NCBI GenBank assembly: GCA_028344855.1
Contig: JAOMCC010000007.1
Span: forward strand, 1 to 35,905
Length of the DNA: 35,905 nt
Reading direction: 5' to 3'
Source: Nitrosomonadales bacterium
GTDB lineage: Bacteria > Pseudomonadota > Gammaproteobacteria > Burkholderiales > Methylophilaceae
Below, piece after piece: positions 24,271 to 26,798 of the stretch; within the stretch, counting starts at the first letter, position 1, and every line of letters begins with the position of its first letter. The translations under genes were made by a program, and so were the position numbers. The notes under the pieces are model-generated. The model was given only the letters and a program-made list of their open reading frames with translations. It had not been told where the DNA came from and did no database searches.

Positions 24271-24299
24271 TTGAAATGAGAATGATTCTCATTTACAAT
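24271..24299 (+). promoter_or_regulatory. Sigma-70 promoter with a Fur box in its spacer
   Basis: TTGAAA (24271-24276), exactly 17 bases, then TACAAT (24294-24299). The spacer is occupied by the palindrome AATGAGAATGATTCTCATT (24275-24293): mirror-perfect arms around one central base. It matches the Fur 7-1-7 pattern (TGAxAAT-N-ATTxTCA). Binding of Fe-Fur here would block RNA polymerase. The next start codon is 34 bases downstream. The sequence match is direct; iron control is inferred. Confidence 0.85.
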
Positions 24300-24333
24300 T
24301 AGAAATTATTATCAGTTAGAAAAGATTACGTTT

Positions 24334-24813
24334 ATGAATTATACAAAAAATATTACTAAAGATTTTATTAAAAATAAAGTTTTAACTTTAGATCTGGAGG
24401 TCTCAGAGACAATGATTGTTTGGGGTCTAAGGCATTGGACAAATGCTCCAAAAATAGATGAAGATCCCCGTGAACTTTTTGCTTTATGTATAGAGCAGCA
24501 TAAACTTCCAGATATATCAGTATTATTTGAAGAATTAGTTAATGGAATAACTGAAGGAACTTTATTTAAAGGAGTTGTTGGTCAAGAATTTTGTAATCAT
24601 TTACATTATGGTGAATTTAAAGTTTTAGAGACCTTATATCTCCTTCAAAATGATCAGTTCAATTTGGCAAATGAATCTTTATCTGGATGGTTAGAGGCAA
24701 ACCAAGCAAGAATATTGTTAAAAATTCTATCTGCTCTAAGTGTGATATTAGAAAAATCTAATCTTATAATACCTCCGCGAAAAGAATATAAAACAAATTG
24801 GCAACCTCACTAA
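24334..24813 (+). CDS. Uncharacterised protein behind a Fur-type promoter
   Basis: I do not recognise a named family. It has 159 residues with no signal peptide or membrane segment, and is largely helical in composition. The region MIVWGLRHWTNAPKI ... LFALCIEQHKLPDISVLFEEL is followed by a CNHLHYGE segment (Cys87, His89, His91) and by LSGWLEANQARILLKILSAL. The general shape (VWxLRxW near the start, a Cys-containing turn, then two helices) recalls short uncharacterised alphaproteobacterial proteins, but I cannot confirm this. The Cys/His cluster could bind a metal. It is first in an apparent operon with rpsD (27-base gap) and pseudoazurin, directly behind the Fur box. Confidence 0.75.
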   Translation: MNYTKNITKDFIKNKVLTLDLEVSETMIVWGLRHWTNAPKIDEDPRELFALCIEQHKLPDISVLFEELVNGITEGTLFKGVVGQEFCNHLHYGEFKVLETLYLLQNDQFNLANESLSGWLEANQARILLKILSALSVILEKSNLIIPPRKEYKTNWQPH

Positions 24814-24840
24814 AAATTTTATTAATACTGGAAAAAATAA

Positions 24841-25461
24841 ATGGCTAATAGAAGAACAAAACCAAAAAATAGATTATCAAGACAAATGGGCGAAAGTATA
24901 TGGGGTAATGAAAATTGCCCAACAAAAAATAGATCATACGGACCTGGTCAACATGGCCCTAAAGGAGTAAGGAGAAGGAGTGACTTCGCTTTTCAATTAA
25001 GAGAAAAGCAAAAGTTGAAGGGTTATTATGGAAATATTGGAGAAAAACAATTTAGAAATATATTTAAGGAGGCTTCATCACAAAAAGGTGATTCAGGCGA
25101 AAATCTTTTAGTAATGCTTGAGTCAAGATTAGATGCAATTGTATATAGAAGTAATTTTGTTCCTACTGTTTTTTCCGCTAGACAGTTAGTTAATCACAAA
25201 CATGTAAAAGTGAACGGAAAAATTGTCAATATTCCTTCTTATAGATGTAAACCAAATGATGAAATTGAAATAAAGGAAAAAAGCAGAAGCATACCCTTAG
25301 TAGTTGACTCAGTTCAAAAATTGATTAGAGATATACCAGAATATTTAAAGTTGAACCAAAAAGATTTTAAAACCTCATATATAAGGTTTCCGTCATCAGA
25401 CGAAATTCCATATGCAACACAAATGCTGCCAGCTGCAGTTATTGAATATTACAGCCGTTAA
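24841..25461 (+). CDS. rpsD: 30S ribosomal protein S4, alphaproteobacterial-type
   Basis: Primary 16S rRNA-binding protein of the small subunit (206 residues). The N-terminal S4 domain is followed by the S4 RNA-binding fold (about 95-160) with RLDAIVYRSNFVPTVFSARQ, NHKHVKVNGKIVNI and PSYRCKPNDEIEI. From memory, LKGYYGNIGEKQFRNIF, the PTVF-ARQ-VNH-HVKVNG block, the DIPEYL turn and the ending IEYYSR match alphaproteobacterial S4 much better than gammaproteobacterial S4. The expected neighbours (rpsK, rpoA, rplQ) are absent; instead it sits between an unknown gene and pseudoazurin behind a Fur box. Whether a second rpsD exists elsewhere cannot be seen. Confidence 0.95.
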   Translation: MANRRTKPKNRLSRQMGESIWGNENCPTKNRSYGPGQHGPKGVRRRSDFAFQLREKQKLKGYYGNIGEKQFRNIFKEASSQKGDSGENLLVMLESRLDAIVYRSNFVPTVFSARQLVNHKHVKVNGKIVNIPSYRCKPNDEIEIKEKSRSIPLVVDSVQKLIRDIPEYLKLNQKDFKTSYIRFPSSDEIPYATQMLPAAVIEYYSR

Positions 25462-25485
25462 AAATTTAAATTGGAGAATTTTAAA

Positions 25486-25935
25486 ATGAAAAAAATAAAG
25501 ATTTTAGTAGTATCTATTTTATTGTTAAGTTTAAATAATGTTTTTGCAGCAGAACATCAAATAAAAATGCTTAATGGATCAAGTGATGATATGTTTAAGT
25601 TTGAACCAGCAGTTTTAAAAATTAAAAAAGGGGATACAGTTAAATGGATTGCTACTGACCCAACACACAATACAGCTTCAATAAAAGAAATGCTTCCAAA
25701 GGGGGCAAAGTCTTGGAATGGAAAAATGAATGAAGAAGTAAGTGTTAAATTCGATGTAGAAGGTCTTTATGGTTATAGTTGCACACCTCACGTAATGTTT
25801 GGAATGGTTGGACTAATAATCGTTGATGACCCTAGTTCAAATCTAGAAACATCAAAAGCATATGCATTGAAACAAGAAGGAAAATGGGTTGCAAACAAAG
25901 GACGATTTTCAAAGTATTTTAATCAAATTAAATAA
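25486..25935 (+). CDS. Pseudoazurin (periplasmic blue-copper protein)
   Basis: Small type-1 copper electron carrier, 149 residues. A signal peptide (1-21, ending VFAA) precedes the mature start AEHQIKML, the usual pseudoazurin beginning. The copper ligands are all present with family spacing: His61 (PTHNTAS), Cys99 and His102 (SCTPH) and Met107. The ATG at 25486, with GGAG at 25473-25476, is chosen over an upstream TTG. It starts 24 bases after rpsD. Pseudoazurins feed electrons to periplasmic reductases or oxidases; no partner enzyme is in this window. Confidence 0.93.
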   Translation: MKKIKILVVSILLLSLNNVFAAEHQIKMLNGSSDDMFKFEPAVLKIKKGDTVKWIATDPTHNTASIKEMLPKGAKSWNGKMNEEVSVKFDVEGLYGYSCTPHVMFGMVGLIIVDDPSSNLETSKAYALKQEGKWVANKGRFSKYFNQIK

Positions 25936-26025: not shown

Positions 26026-26217
26026 ATGGAAGAACAAAACCAAATGTTGATTGATATATCGACACTTCTTGATATTGAATACAAAGAAGTTAAAAAATTT
26101 GTCGAATTAATGCTTGATGGTTATAACTTTGAAGATGGTGTTAATGGATGCTCACTGACTACAGACGAATGTAAATTAGTTTTAGATGAGATACAAAAAA
26201 GAAAGCCAAAAGAATAA
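26026..26217 (+). CDS. Small uncharacterised protein (63 residues)
   Basis: Not recognised. An acidic, soluble, probably helical protein: MEEQNQMLIDISTLLDIEYK, then FVELMLDGYNFEDG, a single NGCSLTTDEC segment with two cysteines, and a lysine-rich end. The ATG has a credible Shine-Dalgarno, TGAGG at 26011-26015. It follows pseudoazurin by 90 bases, so it may have its own promoter. Good start signal and clean frame support a real gene. Confidence 0.6.
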   Translation: MEEQNQMLIDISTLLDIEYKEVKKFVELMLDGYNFEDGVNGCSLTTDECKLVLDEIQKRKPKE

Positions 26218-26291: not shown

Positions 26292-26798
26292 ATGAGCTTA
26301 ACAATGTATGACATTTCAATTCCAATGTTTATTAATAACTTTAATATACTTTCTAATATCCTATTAAAAGCAGAAAGACATGCTGAGAAACGAAAAATTG
26401 ATAAATCAGTTTTTATAAATGCAAGATTATATCCAGATATGCTTCCTCTTTCAAAGCAAATACAAATTGGAACAGATATGGTTAGATTAGGAGTTGGAAG
26501 ATTAGCGGGTATTGAAGCTCCTTCATTTCCTGATGATGAAGAAACTTTTTCTGAACTCCAAAAAAGATTAAGTAAAACTGTTACCTTTCTCAAAAAAGTT
26601 AAAGCGAAACAAATAGATGATTCTGAAGTTAAGAAAATAGAATTTAAAATACGAAAAAGAACATTTAAATTTAAGAATGGACAAGCATATTTAATTAATT
26701 GGATTATCCCTCATTTCTTTTTCCATATGACTACTTCATATGATATCTTGCGAGCTAATGGAGTCAATTTAGGCAAACGAGACTTTGTAAAGATGTAA
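26292..26798 (+). CDS. DUF1993 family protein
   Basis: Soluble helical protein of 168 residues matching DUF1993: start MSLTMYDISIPMFINNFNIL, middle INARLYPDMLPLSKQIQIGT, DMVRLGVGRLAGIEAPSFPDDE, and the ending YLINWIIPHFFFHMTTSYDILRANGV. The family has a DinB-like four-helix-bundle shape; its biochemical role is unknown. It ends 10 bases from the convergent renalase-like gene. GGAG upstream (26280) helps define the start. Confidence 0.88.
   Translation: MSLTMYDISIPMFINNFNILSNILLKAERHAEKRKIDKSVFINARLYPDMLPLSKQIQIGTDMVRLGVGRLAGIEAPSFPDDEETFSELQKRLSKTVTFLKKVKAKQIDDSEVKKIEFKIRKRTFKFKNGQAYLINWIIPHFFFHMTTSYDILRANGVNLGKRDFVKM

Follow-up and report, generated by a model that had tools for sequence, protein, structure and literature searches.

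A Fur-type box upstream of a cysteine-poor S4 paralogue suggests an iron-sparing exchange of a ribosomal protein in OM43 and related Methylophilaceae

The window analysed here, a stretch of 35,905 nucleotides from contig JAOMCC010000007.1 of a Nitrosomonadales bacterium (Methylophilaceae, genus OM43; assembly GCA_028344855.1), contains a run of three genes, orf1, rpsD2 and a pseudoazurin gene, behind a Fur-type palindrome. The product of rpsD2 is a second ribosomal protein S4 (uS4), which has lost most cysteines of the metal site. The box, the gene order, the loss of ligands, the two S4 genes, the conservation and the pattern of presence and absence are read directly from the sequences. Based on these, we consider it likely that the run serves a Fur-controlled, iron-sparing swap, in which the iron-sulphur form of S4 would be replaced by a cluster-free form in company with a copper electron carrier. 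Control of the operon by Fur is itself very probable on comparative grounds. The elements of the run are:

24271..24276, plus strand: -35-like hexamer TTGAAA (10 of 12 promoter matches, counted jointly with the -10 hexamer; TTG[TA]AA in all eight aligned OM43 promoters)
24275..24293, no strand: Fur-type palindrome AATGAGAATGATTCTCATT, kept in seven of the eight congeners having the paralogue
24294..24299, plus strand: -10-like hexamer TACAAT (TA[CG]AAT in seven of eight aligned promoters, TAGTAT in L009)
24334..24813, plus strand: orf1, predicted all-helical protein of 159 amino acids, first gene of the presumed operon, found 5' of the paralogous S4 in eight congeners
24841..25461, plus strand: rpsD2, cysteine-poor (C-) uS4 paralogue of 206 amino acids, alphaproteobacterial type, assigned by TIGR01017, alignment, tree and fold
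25486..25935, plus strand: pseudoazurin, a blue copper protein (TIGR02375, 130.5 bits, cut-off 109.85; pseudoazurins in the PDB)

In agreement with the original prediction, a sigma-70-like promoter, TTGAAA-N17-TACAAT, is present at 24271-24299 with a spacer of 17 bases. The promoter match by itself is not significant (22 found against 26.2 expected in 5 kb), and the case therefore rests on the palindrome and its conservation. The palindrome is its own reverse complement apart from the central base. It had been placed in the spacer, which it fills completely; a small correction is that it extends over the final two bases of the -35 hexamer as well. Of the 18 positions compared, 16 agree with the Fur consensus, AATGATAATNATTATCATT, and 10 with the Zur consensus. 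By chance, 0.05 sites with three or fewer mismatches to the 19-mer are expected per window, and the 19-mer is present at four positions of the assembly, which totals 0.81 Mb, has a completeness rating of 61% and includes the window as contig 35. A 19-bp palindrome that overlaps a promoter and is conserved in relatives is the pattern shown by members of a Fur regulon.

The C+ and C- forms of S4 were defined by Chen, Roberts and Luthey-Schulten in 2009 (PMC3087516), whose definition is followed here and who took the metal to be zinc. For the S4 protein of Thermus thermophilus, a bound [4Fe-4S] or iron-sulphur cluster has been reported (PMC11791143, PMC10450194). The housekeeping S4 of the source genome lies on contig 7 between rpsK and rpoA, in the alpha operon, and shows the C+ motif CxxC...CxxxxC, made up of C9, C12, C26 and C31. 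The window S4 is about 43% identical to this protein. In the alignment three of the four ligand cysteines are gone, a single cysteine, C26, is retained at the fourth ligand position, and a 6-residue segment holding the third ligand is missing. With this motif disrupted and a C+ copy in the alpha operon, the window S4 is of the C- form. The original prediction had treated rpsD as the core S4 gene and thereby placed a core 30S protein, and possibly ribosome output, under iron control. This part fails: because the housekeeping S4 belongs to the alpha operon and has no Fur box, the window gene is a paralogue and its identification as the core gene was rejected.

That rpsD2 encodes an S4 protein is supported by its scores against TIGR01017 (231.3 bits, cut-off 177.2) and NF003717 (246 bits, cut-off 116). 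The best matches of its predicted fold (predicted local distance difference test, pLDDT, 77; predicted template modelling score, pTM, 0.66) are S4 chains of solved ribosomes, with an E value of 7.5e-19, the first 50 residues of the model, including the metal-site region, being of low confidence. A maximum-likelihood tree places the window S4 among S4 proteins from other classes of the phylum (98/91) and separates it from the C+ S4 of the family to which it belongs; its identity to 84 matching reference S4 sequences of other classes is 45-56%. The closest S4 proteins in named plasmid records, with 51.5-55.4% identity, come from Sinorhizobium, Shinella, Paracoccus and Methylobacterium; as these are alphaproteobacterial by genus, we refer to the window S4 as alphaproteobacterial type. 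The ratio of nonsynonymous to synonymous substitution rates among congeners was 0.04-0.11 in six of the seven pairs printed, the seventh being saturated, and at the sequence level the paralogue is under purifying selection in the genus.

A full S4 paralogue was found in nine of 31 OM43 genomes. Eight of the nine loci have a box with 16-18 of 18 matching positions 5' of orf1; in the ninth (G011) the contig ends 736 bases 5' of S4. Across the eight aligned promoters, 17 of 19 box columns and the hexamer TTG[TA]AA are invariant, and the flanks on both sides have diverged. A search of related genomes for the same Fur box had been proposed as a check; the box is found in seven of the eight congeners with the paralogue and also recurs family-wide.

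The family was tested with 67 C- S4 loci of 66 genomes, drawn from 187 family genomes and one genome of another family (G065). A box was counted at 15 or more matches out of 18 within 800 bases upstream, each site being scored against two consensus forms and given the higher score; as one of the two forms is the window's own palindrome, the counts are partly circular. Two S4 genes here means two S4 matches per genome, with the second copy read in 17 of 52; the 52 come from 53 genomes, G149 having been left out, and G107, with two copies of one form, was set apart. A box was present in 51 of the 52 family genomes with two S4 matches, and in 49 when the Fur consensus given above was used alone. 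Wherever the second S4 was read, it has all four cysteines (17/17). The eight genomes (nine loci) that have the C- S4 as their sole S4 showed no box at all. Five genomes with one S4 match in which the alpha-operon S4 was not recovered (G011, G012, G124, G169, G178) were counted apart, and four of them have the box; G065 has none. Dinucleotide shuffles of the same upstream regions reached 15/18 in 3 of 520 cases, and no site of this quality was present anywhere in 24 alpha-operon-type S4 loci. For 43 of the 52 loci, the first gene starts shortly after the box.

All eight sole-copy genomes lack rpsD in their alpha operon, where the gene order is rpsM-rpsK-rpoA. The five of them included in the tree form one group (99/90) nested inside box-bearing lineages, which suggests that Fur control is lost once the C- form is the only S4. 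As judged from tree and gene content, the likely order of events is acquisition of a C- S4 under Fur, then loss of the C+ S4, then loss of Fur control. Table 1 of Chen et al. (PMC3087516) gives only the C-(IV) form for Methylobacillus flagellatus and both forms for Nitrosomonas europaea, and contains no OM43 genome. Two C- S4 genes have also been reported for Methylobacillus flagellatus KT (PMC3087516); G107, a member of the family, carries two as well, with equal scores and at a distance of 143 kb from each other.

Other genera of the family carry a different C- S4, of the C-(IV) type, which is distant in the tree from the window type and usually preceded by a different leader gene of ~90-113 amino acids, without a Pfam match in any of the 15 members scanned. 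For the trees, 15 near-duplicate loci were dropped from the first and ten more from the second, L126 is missing, every second of 29 reference S4 sequences was used, and C+ sequences numbered one in the first and fourteen in the second; both trees were flagged for long branches at deep joins. The box stands in front of both of these unrelated C- S4 lineages. Outside the family, G293 has a window-type S4, two S4 matches and a 17/18 box 37 bases before the start, and its relative G511 (81% complete, one S4 match) has no box. In G539 a 16/18 site lies ~1.2 kb 5' of the C- S4. A class-wide survey of 369 genomes (E <= 1e-43) gave eight matches; seven of the eight loci were retrieved, and none of these seven contains a site of at least 14/18.

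These observations also bear on the idea that the second S4 makes a specialised ribosome, altering decoding accuracy, assembly rate or autoregulation and antitermination at low iron, with any saving of iron incidental. Mutations in uS4 can change accuracy and stress behaviour, as described for an E. coli uS4 mutant (PMC8141631), and the two S4 forms, at ~43% identity overall, differ well beyond the metal site. However, two unrelated C- lineages were recruited, and loss of the metal site is what sets both apart from the housekeeping gene; moreover, the C- S4 stands alone in eight genomes, so that it can serve as a full S4. We regard a specialised ribosome as quite unlikely.

Some C- S4 genes have neighbours with a possible link to iron. 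In G041, the exception among the 52, the C- S4 lies 3' of tonB, exbB, exbD and genes for a TonB-dependent receptor and a PepSY_TM protein, and a 15/18 box immediately precedes the receptor gene. Besides this genome, five of ten C-(IV) neighbourhoods of other families, chosen by their TonB-like look, were scanned with Pfam (G413, G457, G539, G399, G309). G413 has tonB, exbB, PepSY, receptor and ferritin genes near its C- S4 and a 16/18 box at the cluster head, while G457 has receptor, CobN-type chelatase, ExbB-type and DUF2149 genes. TonB receptors occur near the C- S4 in G399, G539 and G309, accompanied by ExbB or PepSY in two of the three. By eye, G295 resembles G539, and G485, G518, G065 and G567 show nothing clear. 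Within the genus, boxes like that of the window adjoin genes for an FTR1 iron permease, ferritin-like proteins and Porin_O_P porins.

Two further observations were made. Porin genes with upstream Fur-type boxes occur in OM43 at L004, L161, L167, L169, L171 and L173, with Porin_O_P assigned by Pfam in L161, L167 and L173 and the other three alike by eye; these porins are possibly iron-responsive. In addition, small proteins with a shared cysteine motif recur in the family beside TonB-like genes, 3' of the C- S4:

L212:238-573 (start only), L017:2443-2682 (on the reverse complement), L024:2354-2656: small proteins with a GCR(V/I)xxCExCxVAE-like motif

The identity of the metal and of its regulator was considered together. 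In a zinc switch, the C+ S4 would bind zinc and the C- copy would spare it, with the box read by a zinc-responsive protein of the Fur family or with iron starvation acting as a mere proxy. Chen et al. classed the C+ S4 as zinc-binding, and the C-/C+ pairs of other ribosomal proteins are under Zur control (PMC3087516). A second Fur-family protein is moreover encoded in the relatives G044, G046, G107 and G040. Against this, the same authors looked for Zur sites near S4 paralogues and reported neither such a site nor one for another regulator (PMC3087516). The window palindrome is closer to the Fur than to the Zur consensus, as given above, and in 51 of 52 upstream regions, scored over most of their length, no Zur-type match exceeded 13/18. 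A search for Fur-family proteins gave exactly one in 10 of 11 OM43 genomes, among them G001 and G005, which are nearly complete, and none in G022; one was likewise found in G054 and G032 of other genera, both of which have a boxed C- S4. The boxes beside FTR1 and ferritin-like genes, and the TonB-receptor genes near the C- S4 of five other-family genomes, also speak for iron. A zinc switch is therefore judged unlikely. Iron control of the Fur type, as originally predicted, has strong comparative support from the conserved box, its recurrence in the family, the boxes at FTR1 and ferritin-like genes and the single Fur-family protein in most OM43 genomes.

The source genome itself encodes a Fur-family protein (PF01475, 133.6 bits, cut-off 23.1). 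At L036 (G000:C10:4402-4725 onward) the reading frame of fur holds up to residue ~110, beyond which the gene goes on in a different frame, while relatives giving a Fur match have no stop inside the match. The break probably reflects either a fault in the assembly or a recent alteration of the gene.

The gene order orf1-rpsD-pseudoazurin stands as first described, with all three genes on the plus strand and separated by 27 and 24 bases; between 24300 and 25935 this strand contains no terminator-like site. Promoter-like sites are found at 24742-24770, inside orf1, and at 25458-25487, before the pseudoazurin gene, and given these sites there may be additional promoters within the run. The same sites favour a reading in which the box governs only orf1, and perhaps pseudoazurin, and in which S4 has its own promoter and its position is an accident of transfer. 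This reading is opposed by orf1-S4 gaps of only 12-27 bases in all nine OM43 loci, by the unrelated leader gene that precedes S4 in the other lineage, and by G293, where no leader was seen between the box and S4. As boxed S4 genes are preceded by different leaders or by none, S4 is the common factor, and we consider control of orf1 without S4 very improbable.

The predicted structure of the orf1 product is all-helical (pLDDT 79, pTM 0.79), and neither Pfam, NCBIfam nor PDB-fold comparison gave a match (best fold E 1.1). Its invariant residues include E25, W30, R33, H34, E85, C87, H89, H91 and E94. A pattern scan of one genome per species, covering 84,980 species, found orf1 in eight loci, with a C- S4 gene directly 3' of it in each. 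The records of the nearest orf1 loci are Methylophilaceae or OM43 isolates and bins, for example AH-578-B19, AG-390-L14, RIS_SAG_48 and FRAM18_bin325, and one is titled only Nitrosomonadales. An assembly artefact or contamination was considered and is unlikely, as orf1 and the C- S4 occur together in eight other genomes of the genus with differing isolate names. Any helper role of orf1 in the swap is a guess.

The pseudoazurin has a hydrophobic N-terminus, taken by eye as a signal peptide, and its THN and CTPHVMFGM segments align with GHN and CAPHVGMGM of the solved pseudoazurin 3tu6, which presumably hold the copper ligands; these positions are thus conserved. The gene lies 3' of the S4 paralogue in eight of nine OM43 loci, in one of them with a broken frame. 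The break is in the relative L211/L007 (G013:C4:50746-51193), where two overlapping matches lie in different frames. Altogether, 11 of the 31 OM43 genomes have a pseudoazurin gene. At L209:2956-3060 (G016:C42:6452-6565), a remnant of the S4 paralogue, corresponding to residues ~160-195, lies just 5' of a pseudoazurin gene and reflects either operon decay or an assembly gap. Beyond pseudoazurin, the window contains a 63-residue open reading frame without a family match (26026-26217, 90 bases 3' of pseudoazurin) and a gene for a DUF1993 protein (26292-26798).

Several points count against an iron-sparing swap. The boxes within the family are shared by descent, so that 51 of 52 does not amount to 52 independent events; as independent events are few, the independent recruitment and the iron-related neighbours are of importance here. 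Eight of the 52 loci have the box not at the promoter of the leader gene but 255-294 bases ahead of that gene, although one of the eight also has 14/18 sites close by. No homology between orf1 and the leader gene of the C-(IV) lineage was found by profile comparison, and on this evidence the two are unrelated. In other families, G293 is the only one of the 12 C- S4 loci retrieved in which a site scores 15/18 or better in the 800 bp upstream. An exact copy of the OM43 box (G017, L166) stands beside genes without an evident link to iron, and TonB receptors may serve substrates other than iron. Three congeners have pseudoazurin without a full S4 paralogue and without a 15/18 box near the pseudoazurin gene, which makes pseudoazurin the looser partner. 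The frame of the source genome's own fur is broken near the C-terminus in this assembly. Finally, the C+ site has been treated as zinc-binding (PMC3087516).

On the whole, the evidence favours the proposal, already offered as one alternative in the original prediction, that an S4 variant and an electron carrier are swapped at low iron, with a housekeeping S4 that has the four-cysteine site as the candidate for replacement. With ample iron, Fur loaded with iron would sit on the palindrome across the promoter and block the operon. Ribosomes would then be built with the alpha-operon S4, whose CxxC...CxxxxC site would hold a metal that, by analogy with Thermus, is most likely a [4Fe-4S] cluster. 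At low iron, Fur would leave the promoter and the operon would be transcribed. The paralogue, which should need no cluster, could supply S4 for new 30S subunits, and 30S assembly would become independent of the iron-sulphur supply. Pseudoazurin would act as a copper electron carrier in place of a haem cytochrome c, and the orf1 product as a helical partner.

One of the nearest known systems is the Zur-controlled C-/C+ switch of S14, L31, L33 and other ribosomal proteins. It shares with the present case a paralogue without metal site outside the ribosomal operon, a form with metal site elsewhere and a metalloregulator box. It differs in that S4 is not among the zinc-ribbon proteins described as switched, that the box is of the Fur type, that the metal site carries [4Fe-4S] in Thermus, and that the presumed operon is shared with a copper electron carrier. 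The S4 swap, as read from sequence, resembles the zinc-ribosome switch except in its regulator, as the window S4 does not stand behind a Zur site. Chen et al. described the same two forms of S4 but in terms of zinc and with no regulator site for the paralogues, and the word iron was not met in the part of their text available (PMC3087516), in contrast to the iron reading and the Fur-type box presented here. Under iron limitation, plastocyanin substitutes for cytochrome c6 and flavodoxin for ferredoxin. In these exchanges, too, a copper or flavin carrier replaces an iron carrier, whereas here the carrier gene is in a presumed operon with a ribosomal protein. Compared with a usual Fur regulon, the palindrome over the promoter and the similar sites at FTR1 and ferritin-like genes of the genus are alike, and the ribosomal protein as a presumed member is what differs. 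In the literature searched, we found no report of S4 or rpsD under the control of Fur or iron limitation, although earlier work may exist; neither rpsD nor Fur was found in the available part of PMC11978286.

In a wider sense, and with moderate confidence, the comparative data suggest that the ribosome is part of the Fur iron-sparing response. S4 of the Methylophilaceae would be an iron-sulphur protein in vivo that is exchanged for a cluster-free S4, probably also in several other families of the order. The arrangement would have arisen at least twice from unrelated donors, with one lineage in which the replacement became permanent and Fur control was lost. Zinc-driven exchange of ribosomal proteins is well known, and an iron-driven one, if true, adds a different metal, regulator and cofactor. 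The [4Fe-4S] cluster on Thermus S4 would then be a physiological cofactor in mesophiles too and not a peculiarity of a thermophile, and its cost on S4 would be large enough for evolution to work around. The finding offers an answer to the question of 2009 of how C- S4 paralogues are controlled, one that is testable in cultured methylotrophs. In the streamlined marine methylotroph studied here, the genes of the C- S4 operon could serve as markers of iron limitation.

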